Shown here in pieces: positions 4,289-12,718 of a stretch of DNA of 64,000 nt; within the stretch, counting starts at the first letter, position 1; each line of letters begins with the position of its first letter. The notes below the pieces were generated by a model. That model did not search any database, was not told the origin of the DNA, and was given only the letters and a program-made list of their open reading frames with translations. The position numbers and the translations under genes are program-made. The DNA lies in the NCBI GenBank assembly GCA_030840645.1, contig JAVEEC010000105.1, positions 1 through 64,000 on the forward strand. The letters run 5' to 3'. Origin of the DNA: Frankiaceae bacterium. GTDB lineage: Bacteria; Actinomycetota; Actinomycetes; BP-191.

Positions 4289-4471
4289 ATGCACAAAGAC
4301 AGGCATATTCGTATCCGCGCCGAGCGCAGGGCCGTACCCGACATCCGGCGGCTGAGCCGGGCCTTGATTGCTCTCGCGATGGCCCAGGCGAGGGCCGAGA
4401 AGGAGGCCCAGGACGAGGATCGGCCCGAAGGCGGCAAGCAGGACAAGGGCTCACCGCGGAGGCCCGCGTGA
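4289..4471 (+). CDS. Small basic protein preceding the transfer ATPase
   Basis: A 60-residue, highly charged protein (Arg/Lys/Glu rich) with a central Ala-rich helix. A very strong ribosome site, AGGAAGGAGG, precedes the ATG at 4289. Its stop overlaps the GTG of the ATPase gene (GTGA), so the two are translationally coupled. The charge and position suggest a DNA-binding or ATPase-accessory protein, but no family is recognised. Confidence 0.65.
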   Translation: MHKDRHIRIRAERRAVPDIRRLSRALIALAMAQARAEKEAQDEDRPEGGKQDKGSPRRPA

Positions 4472-6615
4472 GCGGATCGCACGTCTGGCTGCGTTTGCGC
4501 TGGCCGGGCGAGGTCACCGTCGATCATGTCCGGGCTGGTTTGCTCGCCTTGCACGGGTTGAGCACGCCCCGTCGCCGTGAGGCGCTGGTGCTCGAGGTCG
4601 CCGGGGATCGCCGTGGGGTTCATCACCGGCTCGCTGTTCCCGAAGGACGGCACACCGCCGTGGTGGCCGCCCTGCGGCACGCCGTTCCCGGGCTGGCCGT
4701 CGAAGTCGACGAGGAACCCGACCGCGGCGCGCTCGCGGTCTGGCAGGTGTGGCTGTCGACGCGGCGTCGGCCGCTGCGGCTCAGTGATCCGCAGATCGTC
4801 GCGGTTGGCATCCTGGCCGCCCTCACCGGGCTTCGCGGTGACGAGCGGGTCACGCTGACCTGGATCATCGGCCCGGTACGTCGACCGATCGCGGTGCCGA
4901 ATCGGCAACCGATAGACCGCAGCCAGTCAGCCGCCTCAGTTCTCGCGGGCGTCGTGGCCGGGGCCGGCCTGATGGACTCGGATAGCCGGACGGCGCTAGT
5001 GCGCAAGCAAGGTGAGCCGGGCTGGCGGGCCGCTGGTCAGATCGCGGTACGTGCTGCTACGGGTAATCGTCGCCACCACCTACTTGGCCGGGTCGCCGGT
5101 GCGCTGCGGGTCAGTCAGGGACCGGGTGTTCAGCTCGGTGCCCACCGGGCATGGCTCACCGGCTCCGCGCTGCCCTTACGACGCCCGCTGGCCCTGAACG
5201 TCGAAGAACTGCTGGGGCTCGCTGCCTGGCCGGCCGAGGCAGGTGACGTGCTGCCCCTGGATCGGGTGCCCGCCCGGCTCGTCCCCGCACCCCGAGCGGT
5301 ACGCCGGTCCGGCCGGGTCCTCGGTGTCTGCCCGTATCCGGGCGAGGAACGCCCGGTCGCACTCGGCCTGCGCGACTCCGCGAGCCACTTGGTGGTCACC
5401 GGGCCGACGAACGCCGGGAAGAGCACGATGCTCGTCGGTCTCGCTGCCCAGGACATCGCCGCCGGGCGCGCCGTGGTCTTCATCGACCCCAAGGGCGACG
5501 CCGTAGCCTCGCTGCTGAGCCAGATCCCCGAGGCCCGCCAGGACGACGTCGTGGTCCTCGATGTCGCCGACGACGCCCGCCCGGTCGGCTTCAACCCGTT
5601 ACTGGGCAGCCGGCGCGATCCTGAGCTGGTTGCCGACCAGCTGCTGCATCTGTTCAAGTCGCTATCCGGGGAAGCGTGGGGGCCGAGGATCGCCGACACC
5701 CTCGCGGCCGCGCTCCTCACCATCGCCCAGCAGCCGGACGCCACGCTGTGCGCCCTGCCGCTGCTACTGTCCGACGCGGGCTACCGGCGCAAGGCCCTCG
5801 CCGGACTGGACGACCCCTACGGCCTCGGGCCGTTCTGGGCGTCGTACGAGGCGCTATCGCCGAACGAGCGGCAACAGACCATCGCCCCGGTGATGCGCCG
5901 CTTGCGGCAACTCTTGTTGCGTCCCCGGATGCGTGCGGTGCTCGGGCAGCAGCAGCCGCGGTTCCAGATCGGCCAGGTACTCACCGAGCGCAAGGTGCTG
6001 CTCGTCTCGCTCGCCAAGGGCGTCATCGGCCCCGAGGCCAGCGCCCTCATGGGATCACTGGTCCTGGCCAGCCTGTGGCAGGCGCTGCTCGGCCAGGCGG
6101 CGCTGCCGCCCGAGCGGCGACAACTGGTAATGGTCTACGTCGACGAGGTGCAGGAAGCCGTCCATGGCATCACCGACCTCGGCGAGATGTTCGCCCTGGC
6201 CCGCTCCCACGGTGGCCCGCTGAACGTCGCCCACCAACACCAAGCCCAGCTCGACGCCAACCTGCGTAGCGCGCTGGACGCCAACGCCCGGTCCCGGGTC
6301 GTGTTCCAGACCTCGGCCGAGGACGCCTCTTACTTCGCTCGAGGGCAGAAGACGCTCCGCCCGGAGGACTTCCAGCGGCTGCCGCGCTTCCACGCCTACG
6401 CCCGGCTGTCCGCCGACGGCTGGGTCACGCCGTACTTCTCGCTCCAGACCCGGCCGCTGCCCGAGCCGGTCAGCGACCCCAACGCCATCCGCGCCTTGAG
6501 CCGGGAGCGCTACGGCGTCGACCGGAGCCAGGTCGAAGCCGACCTAAGAGCCCTCCTCGGCACGTCCGTGAACCCGGGCGAGGCACCGCTCGGCGGGCGA
6601 CGGAGGACCGAATGA
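4468..6615 (+). CDS. VirD4/HerA-type DNA-transfer ATPase
   Basis: A 715-residue P-loop ATPase resembling type IV coupling proteins and HerA/FtsK-like DNA pumps. Walker A is GPTNAGKST near residues 312-320. A DPKGD segment follows about 30 residues later, typical of VirD4/TraG proteins, and the Walker B is VMVYVDEVQ near residue 555. Residues 1-300 form an N-terminal domain without clear membrane helices, so membrane attachment may come from the small neighbours. The C-terminus has the LPRFHAYARL strand pattern seen in this family. The GTG start at 4468 overlaps the upstream stop. Expected role: moving element DNA during conjugation or mobilisation. Confidence 0.85.
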   Translation: MSGSHVWLRLRWPGEVTVDHVRAGLLALHGLSTPRRREALVLEVAGDRRGVHHRLAVPEGRHTAVVAALRHAVPGLAVEVDEEPDRGALAVWQVWLSTRRRPLRLSDPQIVAVGILAALTGLRGDERVTLTWIIGPVRRPIAVPNRQPIDRSQSAASVLAGVVAGAGLMDSDSRTALVRKQGEPGWRAAGQIAVRAATGNRRHHLLGRVAGALRVSQGPGVQLGAHRAWLTGSALPLRRPLALNVEELLGLAAWPAEAGDVLPLDRVPARLVPAPRAVRRSGRVLGVCPYPGEERPVALGLRDSASHLVVTGPTNAGKSTMLVGLAAQDIAAGRAVVFIDPKGDAVASLLSQIPEARQDDVVVLDVADDARPVGFNPLLGSRRDPELVADQLLHLFKSLSGEAWGPRIADTLAAALLTIAQQPDATLCALPLLLSDAGYRRKALAGLDDPYGLGPFWASYEALSPNERQQTIAPVMRRLRQLLLRPRMRAVLGQQQPRFQIGQVLTERKVLLVSLAKGVIGPEASALMGSLVLASLWQALLGQAALPPERRQLVMVYVDEVQEAVHGITDLGEMFALARSHGGPLNVAHQHQAQLDANLRSALDANARSRVVFQTSAEDASYFARGQKTLRPEDFQRLPRFHAYARLSADGWVTPYFSLQTRPLPEPVSDPNAIRALSRERYGVDRSQVEADLRALLGTSVNPGEAPLGGRRRTE

Positions 6616-6703
6616 ACCTCGTCGTTGCCTACCCGATCGCTCTACCGATCGCGTCACTGAACCTCGCCCGTTCCCGCAGGTCAGTAGCCCTGCCGTTGTC
6701 CAC

Positions 6704-6779
6704 CTGCGCGGGGACTGATGCGCCCCAGACGGGGCGCACAGCCGGTCGCCGGAGATGCCGACTCTGCGCGCGGACTGAT
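6704..6779. repeat. 16-bp direct repeats flanking a perfect hairpin (candidate oriT/clt or origin)
   Basis: CTGCGCGGGGACTGAT (6704-6719) and CTGCGCGCGGACTGAT (6764-6779) match at 15 of 16 positions and start exactly 60 bp apart. Between them TGCGCCCC-AGAC-GGGGCGCA (6719-6738) is a perfect 8-bp hairpin. CCGATCGC also occurs twice at about 6633 and 6645. The 184-bp spacer between the transfer ATPase and the replication-relaxation gene has no convincing gene; a 63-codon frame from 6612 looks non-coding. Such structures are typical of nicking or protein-binding sites. Confidence 0.5.
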
Positions 6780-6799
6780 CGATCGATGGGGCGTTCGTC

Positions 6800-7588
6800 A
6801 TGAGCGCCAACGCGATGTCGCGGCTGCGGACGGCGCTGAGCGACCGCGACCTGGCGGTGCTGCACGCCGTGGCCGAACTGCGTTACGTCACTGGCAGACA
6901 ACTCCAGACCTTGTACTTCGACGGTGAGCACACCACCTCCCTGACTGCCGCCCGTACTTGTAGACGAGTGTTGGAACGGTTGACCCATCTTGGTGTGCTG
7001 CGACGCCTCGAGCGGGTCATCGGCGGCGTCCGCGCCGGTTCCGGCTGCTTCGTCTACGGCCTCGGACCATCCGGTCACCGCCTGCTGGCCGACGGGCGGT
7101 CACGGCAAGGTTTTCGTGAGCCGAGCACGACGTTCCTCGATCACACCCTCGCCGTCTCCGGACTGTTGGCGTCGGTCGTCGCTGCCAGCAAGCAGGACCA
7201 CTGCCAACTGCTGCACTACCAAGTCGAACCAGCCTGCTGGCGCAGCCTGCCCGGCTACTCGACTGCGGACACGCTCCGACCCGATCTGCTGCTCGTCGTC
7301 GCCCGCGGTGACATGGAGTGGCACTGGTTCGTCGAGGTCGACCTCGGCAGCGAGCACGGGCCGGCCGTGGCCCGGAAGTGCCGCCAGTACCTGCGCTACT
7401 ACCAGAGCGGCCGCGAGCAAGCCGAACGCGGTGTCTTCCCGAAGGTCGTCTGGCTAACCACGACCAGCGAACGGGCCGCACGACTTCGCGGGATCTGTAA
7501 CGAGACGAGCCCGGACGTGCCGATGTTCGAGGTCGGGCTGCTCGGCACGCCGCTGCCGACCTTGCTGCCGGACGAGGGCGGCCAATGA
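6800..7588 (+). CDS. Replication-relaxation family protein
   Basis: A 262-residue protein matching the replication-relaxation family (Pfam Replic_Relax) by its layout: an N-terminal winged helix (residues about 8-75: RDLAVLHAVAELRYVTGRQL, then a second helix leading to VLRRLERV), a central DH-type segment (FLDHTLAVSGLLA), and a C-terminal nuclease-like fold with RPDLLLVV and HWFVEVDLG, resembling a PD-(D/E)xK core. The family is found on actinobacterial plasmids and integrative elements and is linked to replication or copy control. The start ATG is at 6800; the stop overlaps the next ATG. It follows the repeat/hairpin region, which could be its target. Confidence 0.8.
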   Translation: MSANAMSRLRTALSDRDLAVLHAVAELRYVTGRQLQTLYFDGEHTTSLTAARTCRRVLERLTHLGVLRRLERVIGGVRAGSGCFVYGLGPSGHRLLADGRSRQGFREPSTTFLDHTLAVSGLLASVVAASKQDHCQLLHYQVEPACWRSLPGYSTADTLRPDLLLVVARGDMEWHWFVEVDLGSEHGPAVARKCRQYLRYYQSGREQAERGVFPKVVWLTTTSERAARLRGICNETSPDVPMFEVGLLGTPLPTLLPDEGGQ

Positions 7589-8580
7589 TGACGGTCAACC
7601 GCTTCCTAGTCGGCGACGCGCTCACCCGGCTCCGGGAACTCCCGGCGGCCAGTGTCGATACCGTCATCACCAGCCCGCCGTACCTGCTGCTCCGCGACTA
7701 CGACGTCGTGGGCCAGATCGGCGCCGAAACGAACGCCGACGCCTGGGCGGACCGCCTGCTGCCGGTACTGCGCGAGGTCGCCCGCGTACTCAAGCCAAGC
7801 GGCAGCCTGTGGCTCAACCTAGGCGACTGCTATGCCCGCCACCCCCGACACGGAGCGCCACCGAAGAGCCTGCTGCTCGCCCCGGAACGGCTCCTGCTCC
7901 GCCTCCACGTCGACGGCTGGATCGTTCGGAACAAGGTCGTCTGGGCCAAGCGCAACCCCAGGCCGTCGAGCGTCCGCGACCGCCTGACCTGTACCTGGGA
8001 GCCCGTCTACCTGCTGGTCCGCTCCCGCCACTACTACTTCGACCTCGACGCGATTCGTCGCCCGCTCCGCTCACTGCCACGGGCACCGGCGAGACATCCG
8101 CCGCGACTGCAACAGGGCATCGGGCCGCTCGCCAACGCCAACAGCGGGCTACGGCGACTCGGTGCCCTAGGCATCCCTGGTCATTCCCTTGGGGCGAACC
8201 CCGGCGACGTCGTGACCACCGCCGCCAGCAACTACCGGGGCGCCCACTTCGCCACCTTCCCGACGGCGCTCGTGGAGCCGCTGCTCACAGCGACCTGCCC
8301 GGAGAAGATCTGCGCCGACTGCGGTCGCCCGTGGAACCGCGAACCGGCACGGCGGCTTGGGGAACTCGCCATCCTCGGTCACCTTCGACCCGTCTGTGAA
8401 TGCGCCGCGTCGGCGATACCGGGGCTGGTGCTGGACCCGTTCAGCGGCGCGGGCACGGTAGCGCTGGTCGCTCAGACGCACGGCCGGCACTGGCTCGGCA
8501 TCGACCTCAACCCGGCATACGTCCGCCTCGCCGAGCAACGGCTCCGGGACGCCACCAACGGTCAACGACGGGCCGCATGA
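7585..8580 (+). CDS. DNA methyltransferase, beta class (N4-C or N6-A)
   Basis: A 331-residue amino-methyltransferase. Catalytic motif IV is TSPPY at residues 29-33. The AdoMet-binding motif I, DPFSGAGT, comes late (about residue 292), so the order IV then I marks the beta class. Between them are typical beta-class segments (WAKRNPRPSS, LTCTWEPVYLL) and a Cys cluster (CPEKICADC and CECA) that probably binds zinc. SPPY fits N4-cytosine or N6-adenine; the target cannot be read from the sequence. No restriction nuclease gene adjoins it, so it is an orphan, perhaps protecting the element or marking its DNA. Confidence 0.88.
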   Translation: MMTVNRFLVGDALTRLRELPAASVDTVITSPPYLLLRDYDVVGQIGAETNADAWADRLLPVLREVARVLKPSGSLWLNLGDCYARHPRHGAPPKSLLLAPERLLLRLHVDGWIVRNKVVWAKRNPRPSSVRDRLTCTWEPVYLLVRSRHYYFDLDAIRRPLRSLPRAPARHPPRLQQGIGPLANANSGLRRLGALGIPGHSLGANPGDVVTTAASNYRGAHFATFPTALVEPLLTATCPEKICADCGRPWNREPARRLGELAILGHLRPVCECAASAIPGLVLDPFSGAGTVALVAQTHGRHWLGIDLNPAYVRLAEQRLRDATNGQRRAA

Positions 8581-8668
8581 TGCGGCGCGCCTCGTCGCTG
8601 CCGTGCGGCTTCACCGCGCGAACCCAAGAGGGGCTCGCCAGCCGCACCCGCACCGAGGAGGCACGTCT

Positions 8669-8980
8669 ATGAAGACCCTCGCCGTCGAGCTCGACGATGA
8701 GCTGCACGCGCAGCTCACGATGCTCGGCCAGGTTCTGAACAAGCCGGTCAAGGCGCTCATGTACGACGGCGTCAAGGACTACGTCGGTCGGCTCCGTCAG
8801 AGCCCGGAGGTGATCGCCAAGGCGAAGACCTTGCGCGACGCCTTCGACGCCGACGTCGCTGTCCGCCGCAACGCCCTCGACGGCCTGCTCGACCCGGCCA
8901 AGCCCTGGCCTGGCAAGTCCGCAGGCGGGCAGCCCACGAAGCCGGCCAAGCCGGCGAAGGCCACCCCCGCACAGGCCTAG
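8669..8980 (+). CDS. Ribbon-helix-helix-like small protein
   Basis: A 103-residue protein. The N-terminus (MKTLAVELDDELHAQLTMLG, then NKPVKALMYDGVKDYV) has the strand-helix-helix pattern of ribbon-helix-helix DNA-binding proteins. A charged helix follows, and the tail is Lys/Pro/Ala-rich. The ATG at 8669 has GAGGAG just upstream; the longer frame from 8603 is rejected. It lies immediately before the large hairpin and the recombinase promoter, so it may repress the integrase operon or act in partition. No toxin partner is visible next to it. Confidence 0.65.
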   Translation: MKTLAVELDDELHAQLTMLGQVLNKPVKALMYDGVKDYVGRLRQSPEVIAKAKTLRDAFDADVAVRRNALDGLLDPAKPWPGKSAGGQPTKPAKPAKATPAQA

Positions 8981-9017
8981 CCACGGATCCACGCTTGACG
9001 AAAGGAGGCGGGAACAC

Positions 9018-9076
9018 GGCGGGAGCGTCCACATGGTCGAGACAACCTTGTCTCCCCGGACGCTCCCGCCTCTTTC
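9018..9076. terminator. Strong hairpin, probable terminator, before the recombinase operon
   Basis: GGCGGGAGCGTCC (9018-9030) pairs perfectly with GGACGCTCCCGCC (9058-9070). Inside it a second perfect stem, GAGACAA/TTGTCTC (9039-9045 and 9048-9054), closes on CC. TCTTTC follows. It ends the gene at 8980 and separates it from the recombinase pair; the nested stem is unusually elaborate for a plain terminator. Confidence 0.7.
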
Positions 9077-9122
9077 ACTTTGACTAACAAGAAGGGAGGC
9101 GCATGGACATGGACACGACGTT

Positions 9123-9175
9123 GTGGAATCAAACGACACGATTGCATTTTGGTGGAATCGGCGCGAGAATAGAAT
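9123..9175 (+). promoter_or_regulatory. Candidate promoter and repeated operator of the recombinase operon
   Basis: This is an AT-rich tract. TTGCAT (9142-9147) and GAGAAT (9165-9170) are 17 bp apart and could be -35 and -10 boxes. GTGGAATC occurs at 9123-9130 and again at 9152-9159 (29 bp start to start), the second copy lying between the two boxes, as an operator would. The recombinase-like gene starts at 9198 after AGGAAGG. Confidence 0.4.
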
Positions 9176-9197
9176 ATAAAAGGAAGGGTCAATATCA

Positions 9198-9584
9198 ATG
9201 GCTGGATCGGACTCCCACGTGAGAAAGAAGGCGATCATCTACATGCGACTAGCGAACATCAGTGACGCTGACCTCGAGGGGGATGCGTTCGCTCGCCAAC
9301 GGGCAGCGTGCCTCGCGGCGGCGGGCCAGCTTGATGCTGAGGTCGTCGGCGTCCACGCTGATAGTGGCTACTCCGGAACCTCCGCACTACGTCCTGGCCT
9401 CAACGAACTCTTGGCAGAGCTAAGAGGGCGCCAAGATGTCGCGTACGTCATCGTGTCCGATCTTGGCCGCTGGAGCCGTCAACACCGGCTGTTCACAGAT
9501 CTCATGCAACGGCTCAACGATACGCGCGTCCGGCTCGTCGTCGCCGACCAGCCCGCGAGCCTCGCCGAGGCGGTGCGGACATGA
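9198..9584 (+). CDS. Catalytically defective serine recombinase-like protein
   Basis: A 128-residue protein that aligns only with the N-terminal resolvase domain of serine recombinases: YMRLANIS at residues 15-22 stands where YxRVSS normally is, GYSG (57-60) is kept, and SDLGRWSR (87-94) stands where RLDRLSR normally is. The catalytic Ser is replaced by Ala19 and the active-site Asp by Gly90, while the two Arg remain. It has no recombinase or zinc-ribbon domain. Its stop overlaps the integrase ATG (ATGA), so both are made together. It probably cannot cut DNA; a regulatory partner, such as a heterodimer subunit or directionality factor for the integrase, is possible. AGGAAGG precedes the start. 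Confidence 0.75.
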   Translation: MAGSDSHVRKKAIIYMRLANISDADLEGDAFARQRAACLAAAGQLDAEVVGVHADSGYSGTSALRPGLNELLAELRGRQDVAYVIVSDLGRWSRQHRLFTDLMQRLNDTRVRLVVADQPASLAEAVRT

Positions 9585-11296
9585 CACCGCTCGTTGCCGA
9601 GACGGCACCCCCTCACACCCGACCGATCACGAGCGACCGGTCGACGCAGCTTAAACGGTTTGTCGGGTACCTCCGGGTCAGCTCAGACGAGCAGACCAAG
9701 ACCAATGCCCGCGACGGGTACTCCATAGATGTCCAGCGCGAGATGGTCGAGCGCAAAGCCGTGCAACTCGGTGGCGAGGTCGTGGAGTGGTTCGTTGACC
9801 CCGGCCGCTCCGCCAAGAACCTCAACCGGCCAGACCTCACCCGGATGCGTCAGTACCTTCGCGATCATCCCGAGGTCGACGGTGTGATCGTCGCCTGGCT
9901 CGATCGACTCTCCCGTAACACCGAGGACGCCGTCGTCCTGTTCACCGAGTTTCGAGAAACCGGCGTACATCTCATCTCCTGCTCCGAGAGCTTCGACGAA
10001 ACCCCAGCCGGCAAGTTCATGCGGGCCATCTTCACCGCCAAGGCCCAATACGACAACGACGACCGCGCCGAGCGAGTCACCCGGGGCATCCAGAAGAAGC
10101 TAGAGCAAGGTGGCACCCCAACCCGAGCGCATATCGGCTACCTCAACACTCGCAAACGAGTCGGCGGCAAAGACATCGCTACCGTCGTCGTAGACGACGA
10201 GCGCATCGGCCACATTCAGTGGGCGTTCGAGCAGTACGCCACGGGTGAATGGAGCGACTCCACGCTCTGGCTGGCGCTCGTAGAACGCGGCCTCACCAGC
10301 CAGCCGCGCGGCGACCGGCCCGAAGTACCCGTCGCCCGGTCGAAGGTCGCCACCATCCTCACCGACCGCTACTACCTCGGCCAAGTGCCATACAAGGGCC
10401 AGTGGTATCGAGGCGAACACCCTCAGACGATCGACCCCGAACTGTTCGACCGAGTACAAGAGATCCGGACCGCGCACCGCCACGCCGGAGACAAGCCCAG
10501 TCAGCACCGCCACTACCTCAAGGGCACGCTGTACTGCGGCCACTGCGGCTCTCGCCTCGGCATGACCCCATCGACCGGCAACGGCGGCACCTACGACTAC
10601 ACCTACTGCATCGAACGGCATCTACGCGGGACCTGTCAGCAACCGCACGTCGTCGTGGACCGTTTCGAGCCGCAGGTCATCGCGCTCTACGACCACATAC
10701 GGATCGTGCCCAAGTGGCGGGAGCGGGTCCGGGCGTGCCTCCGCGACGACGCCGACGCCGACCTCGGCCAACGGCAGCGTGAAATCGCCCGGCTGACGAA
10801 GCGGCTCGCCCAACTCGCCGTCGAGAAGAAGAACCTTGCCATCAGCCTGCGCAAGGCCCCCCGCCTGGCCGAAGAGATCAACGCCCAACTCGATGACATC
10901 GAAGCCCAGGAGAAGGCCGCCACGAAGAGGCTGGCCGATGCCAACCTCGACCGCGACACCCTCGCCAAGGTCTACGCCGACGCCGAGCGACTCCTTGACC
11001 GGCTACCGCTGGCCGCTCGCATCGTGGACGAACACGGACGCCGCCTGCTCAACCAGTTCTTCTTCGAGAAGGTCCTGGTCAAGGGACACCAACTCGTCGG
11101 CGTGATCTACACCGAGACCGCTCGCTTGATCCTCGGCTACCCGTCTGGACCAGTAGGGCCAGGCGGACAGTCGATAGCCAGCGAGATCACCTTCTACGGC
11201 GCGACCAACCCGGACCCTCTCTCGGGGGTCCAGGGTTCGAACATTGACTCTCTGGTGGGCGCGGCAGGGGTCGAACCTGCGACCGCTCGGGTGTAA
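9581..11296 (+). CDS. Large serine integrase
   Basis: A 571-residue site-specific recombinase. The resolvase domain has YLRVSSDEQ at 30-38 (catalytic Ser34) and WLDRLSRN near residues 106-113. The recombinase domain follows, then a zinc ribbon (YCGHCGSRLG with later Cys) near residues 315-355, a long coiled coil (about 390-470) and a C-terminal tail. It integrates and excises the element. Its last ~15 codons are read through the 3' half of the antisense tRNA-Val (ending GVEPATARV), and the TAA stop (11294-11296) is formed by the anticodon-loop sequence. So the C-terminus depends on the integrated state. It overlaps the defective paralogue by 4 bases. Confidence 0.92.
   Translation: MTPLVAETAPPHTRPITSDRSTQLKRFVGYLRVSSDEQTKTNARDGYSIDVQREMVERKAVQLGGEVVEWFVDPGRSAKNLNRPDLTRMRQYLRDHPEVDGVIVAWLDRLSRNTEDAVVLFTEFRETGVHLISCSESFDETPAGKFMRAIFTAKAQYDNDDRAERVTRGIQKKLEQGGTPTRAHIGYLNTRKRVGGKDIATVVVDDERIGHIQWAFEQYATGEWSDSTLWLALVERGLTSQPRGDRPEVPVARSKVATILTDRYYLGQVPYKGQWYRGEHPQTIDPELFDRVQEIRTAHRHAGDKPSQHRHYLKGTLYCGHCGSRLGMTPSTGNGGTYDYTYCIERHLRGTCQQPHVVVDRFEPQVIALYDHIRIVPKWRERVRACLRDDADADLGQRQREIARLTKRLAQLAVEKKNLAISLRKAPRLAEEINAQLDDIEAQEKAATKRLADANLDRDTLAKVYADAERLLDRLPLAARIVDEHGRRLLNQFFFEKVLVKGHQLVGVIYTETARLILGYPSGPVGPGGQSIASEITFYGATNPDPLSGVQGSNIDSLVGAAGVEPATARV
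11214..11233 (-). terminator. Hairpin downstream of tRNA-Val
   Basis: GGACCC and GGGTCC arms lie about 20-40 bases past the tRNA 3' end, with a purine/pyrimidine-rich loop. It has no T-tract. It lies inside the integrase coding sequence on the other strand, so it may be chance. Confidence 0.3.
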
Positions 11297-11328
11297 GCCG
11301 AGTGCTCGTTCCGCTGAGCTACGCGCCC
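11253..11328 (-). tRNA. tRNA-Val (anticodon TAC)
   Basis: The minus strand gives a full cloverleaf: acceptor GGGCGCG/CGCGCCC, D stem GCTC/GAGC, anticodon stem CTCGG/CCGAG around CTTACAC (anticodon TAC, reading GUA), a 5-base variable loop, T arm GCAGG-TTCGAAC-CCTGC, and an encoded CCA (11253-11255). Length is 76 nt. It is the attachment target of the element to its left: the integrase gene overlaps the tRNA's 3' half in antisense, while the 5' side faces the chromosome. Confidence 0.96.
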
Positions 11329-11410
11329 CTCGTGTGCCGCCGAGCGTACCGGCCGGCGGAATCCCGGGAACTCGGTCGTTCTTGTCACAGGGGTGCGGTA
11401 CACACGGTCC

Positions 11411-12718
11411 ATGACCTTGCTGCCCCGACGGATGCGCGGGCTGCCGCGCGGGGTGTGGGTGCTCGTCGCCGGCACGCTGATCACCCGCGCCGGCTCGTTC
11501 GCGGTGCCGTTCTTGACCATCTACTTGCACAACGAGCGCGGCCTGTCGCTGCGCTGGGCCGGCTTCGCCCTGGCGGCGTACGGCGCCGGCGGCATGGTCG
11601 CGTCCCTCACCGGTGGAACGCTCGCCGACCGGCTGGGTCGCAAGCCGGTCGTCGTCGGCTCGCCGCTGCTGGGCGGGCTCGCGCTCATCGCGTTGCTCTT
11701 CACGCAGGCGCCGCTCGCGGTGCTCGGCGTCGCGTTCCTGGCGGGCGTCGTCGCGGAGGCGGGCCGGCCCGCCATCTCGGCGATGCTCACCGACCTGACG
11801 CCCCTCGACCGGCGCATCGACGCGTTCGCGCTGTTCCGCCTCGTCATCAACCTCGGCTTCGCCGTCGGGACCGGGCTCGGCGGCATCCTGATCACGCACT
11901 TCGGCTTCGCGCGGCTGTTCGTCGCCGACGCGGCGACGTCCTGGATCTACGCGGCAGTGGCACTCGCGCTCCTCCCGGAGACCAGACCGCAGGCCCGCGA
12001 GGCACCCGACAGCCGGCAACGCGGCTTCGGCGCGGTGCTCGCGGACCCGGCGTTCCGGCGGTTCTGGGCGGGCTCGTTCGTCATGGCGGTGGTCTTCGCC
12101 CAGACGATGGTGACGCTGCCGCTGGCGCTCACCGAGCGCGGCTTCTCCACCGCCGTCTACGGCGGCCTCATCTCGGCCAACGGCGTCATCATCATCGCCA
12201 GCGAGTTCTGGATCAGCGGGCGGTCGCGGCACTTCCCACCGCACCGCGTGATGGCCCTCGGCGCGGTGCTGCTCGGCGGCGGGTACGCCGCCATGGGCAT
12301 GGTCGGCCGGTCGATCCCGCTGCTCCTGGGCACCGTCGTCGTGTGGACGTTCGGCGAGATGCTCGGCTCGCCGACCGGCCAGGCGTACCTCTCCGCCATC
12401 GCCCCGCCGCACCTCCGCGGGCGGTACGCGGGAGGGCTCGGCCTGGCCTGGTCGCTCGCCTTCACCGTCGGCCCGATCCTCGGCGGCGTGGCGCTCGCGG
12501 TCGGGGGCGCCTCGCTCTGGCTCGGCAGCCTCGCGCTCGCGCTGGTGTCCGCGCTGCTGTTCCTCACCCTGCCGCCGGTACCAACGACAGCCCCCGTCGC
12601 GATCCCGGCCGGCCCGCCCGCACGCCCCGGCGACCCCGCGCCGGTCGCGCCGGGGCTGGCGATCCCGGACCAGCCTCGGGGGCGGCTGCTGGCGCGGTTC
12701 GCGCGACCTCGGTCGTAG
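11411..12718 (+). CDS. MFS transporter
   Basis: A 435-residue major facilitator with about 12 hydrophobic segments. The loop between helices 2 and 3 has the classical GGTLADRLGRKP motif near residues 68-79. The family is a proton-coupled exporter type, but the substrate cannot be inferred. A GTG at 11393 is possible, but the ATG at 11411 is preferred: TACACA at 11399-11404 could be a -10 giving a nearly leaderless message, and the protein begins normally there. It is the first chromosomal gene to the right of the tRNA and converges with the zinc-ribbon gene. Confidence 0.85.
   Translation: MTLLPRRMRGLPRGVWVLVAGTLITRAGSFAVPFLTIYLHNERGLSLRWAGFALAAYGAGGMVASLTGGTLADRLGRKPVVVGSPLLGGLALIALLFTQAPLAVLGVAFLAGVVAEAGRPAISAMLTDLTPLDRRIDAFALFRLVINLGFAVGTGLGGILITHFGFARLFVADAATSWIYAAVALALLPETRPQAREAPDSRQRGFGAVLADPAFRRFWAGSFVMAVVFAQTMVTLPLALTERGFSTAVYGGLISANGVIIIASEFWISGRSRHFPPHRVMALGAVLLGGGYAAMGMVGRSIPLLLGTVVVWTFGEMLGSPTGQAYLSAIAPPHLRGRYAGGLGLAWSLAFTVGPILGGVALAVGGASLWLGSLALALVSALLFLTLPPVPTTAPVAIPAGPPARPGDPAPVAPGLAIPDQPRGRLLARFARPRS

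Follow-up and report, generated by a model that had tools for sequence, protein, structure and literature searches.

A putative origin of transfer embedded in an open reading frame between the coupling-protein and MOBC-family relaxase genes of an actinobacterial mobile element

Genes and repeats at the coupling protein–relaxase junction

The left end of the window (the whole 64-kb stretch of DNA analyzed here) is occupied by a compact module encoding a coupling ATPase, a relaxase, a DNA methyltransferase, a small open reading frame (ORF), and a serine recombinase, all on the plus strand. The upstream partner of the junction described below is a VirD4/TraD-like coupling-protein ATPase of 715 amino acids (4468..6615), which matches TrwB_AAD_bind (4.9e-5) and T4SS-DNA_transf (1.2e-4) in Pfam and TraD subfamilies under the cut-off in NCBIfam. 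It is followed by a MOBC-family (Replic_Relax) relaxase gene of 262 codons (6800..7588), an N6/N4 DNA methyltransferase gene that is a conserved neighbor (7585..8580), and a small conserved ORF (8669..8980) that lacks a family match and shows weak similarity to ORFs in the equivalent position of five relatives. The methyltransferase gene and the small ORF likewise come after the relaxase gene in the five nearest relatives inspected. The module closes with a large serine recombinase gene (9581..11296), whose 3′ end lies inside a tRNA-Val gene on the opposite strand (11253-11328). A short ORF with a resolvase N-terminal domain (9198-9584) overlaps the start of the full recombinase and is perhaps a split or accessory recombinase. 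A tRNA gene (Val, Ala, Arg, or Leu) is found downstream on the minus strand in 12 of 14 related loci scanned, and the serine recombinases therefore seem to target tRNA genes.

Several of these features are those of an integrative mobilizable element (IME), namely a serine recombinase at tRNA-Val, a dedicated relaxase, and a genome in which the VirB4-like ATPase family PF12846 has no match over the Pfam cut-off, with the left end of the element missing because the contig begins at window base 1. Given the lack of a PF12846 match over that cut-off, a secretion channel supplied by a helper is assumed.

Within the gap between the ATPase and relaxase genes (68% GC), a preliminary description had reported repeats and a hairpin, and all of them are present. 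A 16-bp direct repeat occurs as CTGCGCGGGGACTGAT at 6704-6719 and CTGCGCGCGGACTGAT at 6764-6779 (15/16 identical, 60 bp apart, each copy unique in the window), and a perfect 8-bp stem with an AGAC loop (TGCGCCCC-AGAC-GGGGCGCA, 6719-6738) is also unique. CGATCG sites lie at 6634, 6646, and 6780, this being a palindrome with 68 occurrences across the window. A 16-nt repeat with one mismatch at most appeared in none of 300 shuffles of the gap and a stem of at least 8 bp in 12 of 300, so that the repeat is significant alone, while the hairpin alone is only an approximately 4% event. At default settings the repeat tool did not list the 16-bp repeat.

Comparison with relatives, described below, resolves the gap into a direct-repeat box (6631..6656), delineated by motif discovery and co-variation, in which two CCGATCG half-sites (6633-6639 and 6645-6651) are spaced 12 bp apart and form a proposed relaxase-binding site; a spacer containing CAGGTCAG (6677..6684); a first core copy (6702..6719), 45 bp from the box, that holds the first copy of the repeat and is the proposed nic region; the hairpin (6719..6738), directly after the core; and a second core copy (6762..6779), 20 bp before the relaxase start, that corresponds to the second copy of the repeat. 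The central part of the element is the CGATCG pair together with the first repeat copy, and the second copy is an extra core. Similar second core copies occur in L037 and L039 (L035 is marginal), located 40-58 bp upstream of the estimated start of the relaxase gene, and the distance between the two core copies varies among the loci that have both.

The adjoining gene encodes a MOBC-family relaxase

The preliminary description held that the window contains no relaxase and that the repeats may mark a different transfer mechanism. The product of the gene at 6800-7588, however, matches Replic_Relax (PF13814) with an E-value of 5.8e-40 and 137.9 bits (cut-off 25.3) over the full profile (1-191), and PF13814 is the family named MobC in PMC5357655. 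The structural model of the protein (pLDDT 93) contains a winged helix at residues 11-98, which superimposes on the MarR-family protein HpaR, in its DNA complex, with a Z-score of 9.4 and an rmsd of 1.6 over 75 aligned residues. For the rest of the model, the best-ranked Foldseek matches include the restriction endonucleases FokI and PaqCI and, further down, a protein of the XisH type, all of them weak (E at best 0.012). The VIA-align list says little on this nuclease part because it covers mainly residues 2-105. MOBC relaxases are PD-(D/E)XK-like, according to a review (PMC12857230), and D162, E179, and D181 are invariant in 59 relaxase sequences and placed at or in strands of the model. The relaxase of the enterococcal plasmid pAM373, typed as MOBC, also matches PF13814, and its alignment with the window relaxase spans 150 columns and keeps the acidic positions in register but is weak (hhalign E 0.013, probability 3.4%). 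Family match, fold, and active-site pattern together identify the "replication-relaxation" gene as that of a MOBC-family relaxase, which leaves a different transfer mechanism, suggested on the grounds that no relaxase is present, unsupported. The plasmid collection contained no relative of the window relaxase, and viral contigs gave one distant match that was left out of the analyses.

The family name, together with tandem repeats that resemble iterons, also invites a reading in which the Replic_Relax protein initiates replication of the excised element from this site, and MOBC proteins are counted among possible multifunctional initiators in PMC5714925. We regard a replication origin as very unlikely, since there are two repeats only, the GC-rich gap has no AT-rich stretch, and the neighboring gene encodes a coupling protein with no replication gene alongside.

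A conserved cis-element at related junctions

Relatives were collected by scanning 84,980 species genomes once with an alignment of the ATPase, from which 80 loci were kept, 78 of them with a relaxase match downstream. Leaving out the 2 loci without such a match and 12 whose relaxase start fell outside 90-400 bp gave 66 loci, which together with the window and five loci from a second set comprise 72 junctions with 90-400 bp between the ATPase stop and the relaxase (in the second set, four others were duplicates of scanned loci and the remainder had short or cut gaps). A motif search without a position model found a 26-nt box, TTCCGNTCGccctTCCGNTCGCGTCG, made of two half-sites 12 bp apart, with a likelihood of 613 compared to 89-96 in shuffles. 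The half-site consensus, CCGNTCG, is the cluster of CGATCG motifs noted in the preliminary description. The box scored above 6 bits in 67 of the 72 junctions, the five at 6 or less being L064, L092, L109, L112, and L113, and 57 of the 67 junctions carrying it are, going by record titles, from Actinomycetota. A second motif downstream, the core (.TA..GccgcCGAatg.c), reached a likelihood of 235 against 62-66 in shuffles.

The spacing of the two motifs is strongly constrained. When the best core match was taken without constraint, the distance from box to core was exactly 45 in 50 of 67 junctions, 34-36 in nine, and another value in eight, whereas the distance of the element from the ATPase stop varies. 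The window is one of those eight, as its best match, at 105, is the second repeat copy, and the first copy sits at 45; its core fits the consensus weakly at either place (2.5 bits at 45, 4.7 bits at 105). The window was placed at 45 by hand, which gives 51 of 67 junctions at that distance, and core analyses were performed on these 51 loci and the half-site analysis on all 67. Within a 12-nt zone of the spacer, the pentamer GGTCA, which is also found in this zone of the window, occurs in 17 of the 51 loci, compared to 25 occurrences in all 9434 nt of these gaps.

Perfect stems directly after the core are in excess in the same 51 loci, with stems of at least 6 bp in 15 loci (1.0 in shuffles) and of at least 8 bp in 7 (0.0 in shuffles). 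No stem excess was seen in the spacer between box and core by the same shuffle comparison, and stem sequences differ among loci. The box of half-sites is common to 67 of 72 junctions; the hairpin is far from universal. These observations bear on a reading in which the feature acts as RNA, with an mRNA fold across the junction controlling relaxase translation. In some class A loci, such as L011 and L087, the hairpin does hold the GGAGG of the relaxase start. The strongest constraint nonetheless falls on the 12-bp tandem repeat outside the hairpin, the alternative spacings differ by about one turn of DNA, and an Rfam scan of 6000-11500 gave no match except at the tRNA; we consider an RNA element highly improbable. 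The match at the tRNA included Plastid-ycf2 (11255-11328, plus strand), which is antisense to the tRNA, below the gathering score, and taken as chance.

A model trained on sequence only, from the 51 loci in alignment, found one place per source in 49 of 73 sources (E < 1e-3; L104-L113 are not among the 73), all at the junction. Training loci account for 46 of these 49 matches, and L076, L097, and L079 lie outside the training set. Orphan origins lacking a relaxase were also sought, using model R1 in 296 genomes at E 1e-4, and this candidate class was rejected. The search returned 10 matches in 9 genomes, of which nine are at an ATPase/relaxase junction (most of them training loci) and one, in G119, lies in dehydrogenase genes and was taken as chance.

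The half-sites co-vary with a residue of the relaxase

The first triplet of the half-site varies between loci (CCG, CAG, CGT/CGC, or GGN) and agrees within a locus. Across 59 loci (8 near-duplicates dropped), first-triplet identity between the two half-sites is 0.887, compared to 0.63 when shuffled (z 9.2). When 257 relaxase and 409 ATPase columns were tested against half-site class in 67 loci, relaxase residue 55 stood apart with a z of 26, the next relaxase column reaching 8.3 and the best ATPase column 9.5. Residue 55 is Arg in 43 of 45 loci of the CC class, Asn in 5 of 5 with CAG, Gln in 7 of 9 of the CG class, Trp in 5 of 6 of the G class, and Gln in both mixed loci. The window relaxase carries Arg55 and adjoins CCGATCG half-sites. 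The ATPase tree implies 12 changes of half-site class and 14 of residue 55, and among 8 independent pairs 7 are concordant and none opposite (p 0.016); the CAG loci form a single clade. In the model, residue 55 falls within helix 47-63, the place of the recognition helix of a winged helix. Together, these comparisons are strong evidence for a predicted interaction in which the winged helix of the relaxase reads the half-sites.

Binding by the neighboring protein would also suit an operator, through which the relaxase winged helix would regulate the coupling-protein/relaxase operon from the half-sites while the true oriT lies elsewhere. Direct repeats alone would suit autorepression, and operators often precede the gene of their own regulator. 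The site is, however, downstream of the ATPase gene, where no promoter position is demanded, a second core at fixed helical spacing and a hairpin exceed what an operator needs, and repeats occupy the same place in enterococcal MOBC plasmids (see below). An operator alone is accordingly an unlikely explanation, although the least improbable of the alternatives weighed here.

The element lies inside a reading frame

The gap had been described as non-coding, but it is filled by a 63-codon ORF (6612..6803, plus strand) that is joined to both neighbors by ATGA overlaps. Its ATG (6612-6614) overlaps the ATPase stop codon TGA (6613-6615), its own stop codon TGA (6801-6803) overlaps the relaxase ATG at 6800, and a Shine-Dalgarno sequence, GGAGGA (6602..6607, plus strand), precedes its start. 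The same arrangement is found in relatives. In 62 of the 67 loci with a box, a frame through the element begins with an ATGA or GTGA overlap at the ATPase stop; 37 of these frames close with ATGA or GTGA where the relaxase gene starts, and 25 run on as the relaxase. By inspection, the other five comprise L034, with the same ORF and an 8-nt overlap; L074, where the relaxase frame begins before the ATPase stop; L099, where the frame is present but shifted; and two weak motif matches, L088 and L111. L076 and L097, which are outside this count because their relaxase gene follows immediately, carry the element within the 3′ end of the ATPase ORF. Upstream of the RTGA start, a Shine-Dalgarno core is present at 51 of 64 loci, compared to 106 of 1280 control positions, and one is present upstream of the relaxase start at 31 of 37. 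Since the remaining two frames are also open across the gap, in 26 and 30 of the 62 loci, frame openness alone is weak evidence in GC-rich DNA, and the case is built on the precise overlaps and the ribosome-binding sites.

These overlaps and ribosome-binding sites at both ends, together with a single reading frame for the box among 36 of 42 class A loci, are what would be expected if the small protein itself were the function and its codons mimicked a DNA motif. Among the fused loci, on the other hand, the box is read in two frames (13 and 12 of 25), and profile searches with the 63-amino-acid product gave no protein family match. In eight close pairs, dN/dS was 0.42-2.31 for the ORF, 0.12-0.19 for the relaxase, and 0.04-0.20 for the ATPase, and the dS of the ORF was below that of the relaxase in 7 of 8 (a ninth pair, L034/L035, was excluded because the wrong frame had been taken for L034). 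The two frames and the high dN/dS led us to reject a conserved peptide, and we give a small protein gene hardly any credence. The element is nearly always within a frame, be it a short ORF of its own, the 5′ end of the relaxase gene, or the 3′ end of the ATPase gene, and the encoded protein is not conserved.

Comparison with known transfer systems

The closest parallels are the oriT regions of the enterococcal MOBC plasmids pAD1 and pAM373. In pAM373, tandem 12-bp repeats begin about 28 bp beyond the coupling-protein stop codon and are succeeded by a long inverted repeat and the relaxase gene, and two further enterococcal plasmids (L125 and L126) are laid out in the same way (repeats read by eye in all three). 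In the window and its relatives, the site likewise lies between the coupling protein and relaxase genes together with an inverted repeat. Shared with the enterococcal systems are a PF13814 relaxase with a winged helix and a putative nuclease domain and the succession of coupling protein, tandem 11-12-bp repeats near its stop codon, inverted repeat, and relaxase. TraX of pAD1 is a winged-helix protein whose binding sites are five direct repeats located 70-120 bp away from nic (PMC12857230). The enterococcal origins differ in having five or six repeats rather than two half-sites, 70-120 bp rather than about 45 bp to the core, and a long inverted repeat rather than a short hairpin. The element also lies inside an ORF here and not in pAM373, and there is no repeat sequence in common. 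A GAATAC core, present at some of our loci, was considered as a trait common with the enterococcal plasmids and rejected, as it is in pAM373 and absent in L125 and L126.

Streptococcal IMEs of class 8 combine the same compact set of a VirD4 coupling protein, a MobC relaxase, and a serine integrase, with only two examples and an oriT that is left without description in the portion of PMC5357655 available. Unlike these, their actinobacterial counterparts also encode a DNA methyltransferase and are located at tRNA genes. Actinomycete AICEs integrate at tRNA genes and transfer double-stranded DNA by means of an FtsK-like TraB protein and clt sites. The elements described here resemble AICEs in being actinobacterial and located at tRNA genes, and differ from them in their VirD4-type ATPase and MOBC relaxase.

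A model for the origin and its reading frame

An origin of transfer, one of three functions suggested in the preliminary description, is the best-supported reading, given the conserved site, its co-variation with the adjoining relaxase, and its place as in the enterococcal MOBC plasmids. We propose that 6631-6738, with the extra core at 6762-6779, is probably the oriT of a MOBC integrative mobilizable element, embedded in an open frame. The winged helix of the relaxase (6800-7588) would bind the two 12-bp-spaced CCGATCG half-sites, and its predicted PD-(D/E)XK-like domain would reach a core lying four helical turns (about 45 bp) or three (about 35 bp) away and nick nearby; the adjacent hairpin probably serves to present or mark the region of the nick. 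The upstream-encoded coupling ATPase could then hand the strand over to a helper's secretion channel. While the element, its spacing, the co-variation at residue 55, the arrangement of frames, and the ribosome-binding sites were computed directly, relaxase binding, nicking, the position of nic, transfer, and translation are inferred from them. Placing the origin within an open frame may keep the coupling-protein and relaxase genes one translated unit, in which ribosomes terminating at ATGA could restart on the relaxase gene.

More tentatively, and with somewhat less than even confidence, we hypothesize that the origin is itself translated. Selection would keep the frame open while leaving the peptide unconserved, the owner of the frame could be a short ORF, the relaxase, or the coupling protein, and the passage of ribosomes would be the function, alongside a residue–half-site code of Arg-CCG, Asn-CAG, Gln-CGY, and Trp-GGN. 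Such passage would keep the operon transcribed across the hairpin, tie relaxase output to coupling-protein output, and perhaps clear or gate the relaxosome.

In the titles and abstract openings of the papers listed by searches on MOBC oriT in Actinobacteria, oriT in coding sequence, the nicK overlap of ICEBs1, and translational coupling, no translated origin is described. The oriT of ICEBs1 reaches into the relaxase gene. That of MTnSag1 lies within a gene, a position thought fortuitous (PMC5704250). An oriT inside a gene is therefore not new as such; what would be new is a rule that holds across the family and involves three host frames. Few relaxase families have been studied less than MOBC. 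A survey of mycobacterial plasmids states that known oriT sequences were not found in them and that only MOBF and MOBQ had previously been identified in Actinobacteria (PMC8190616). The candidate described here gives a compact group of actinobacterial mobile elements an origin that is defined and can be searched for, provides a testable relaxase–DNA recognition code, and raises the question of why an origin must be ribosome-readable. Gene finders will label such origins as small hypothetical proteins or relaxase N-termini, hiding them.

The same genome also holds a broken sister element (L033, approximately 9918-10640 of C97), which was considered as a second junction and rejected as a remnant lacking the ATPase junction. 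It retains fragments of the relaxase (77% and 51% identity) and of the methyltransferase, which end at an apparent tmRNA gene.
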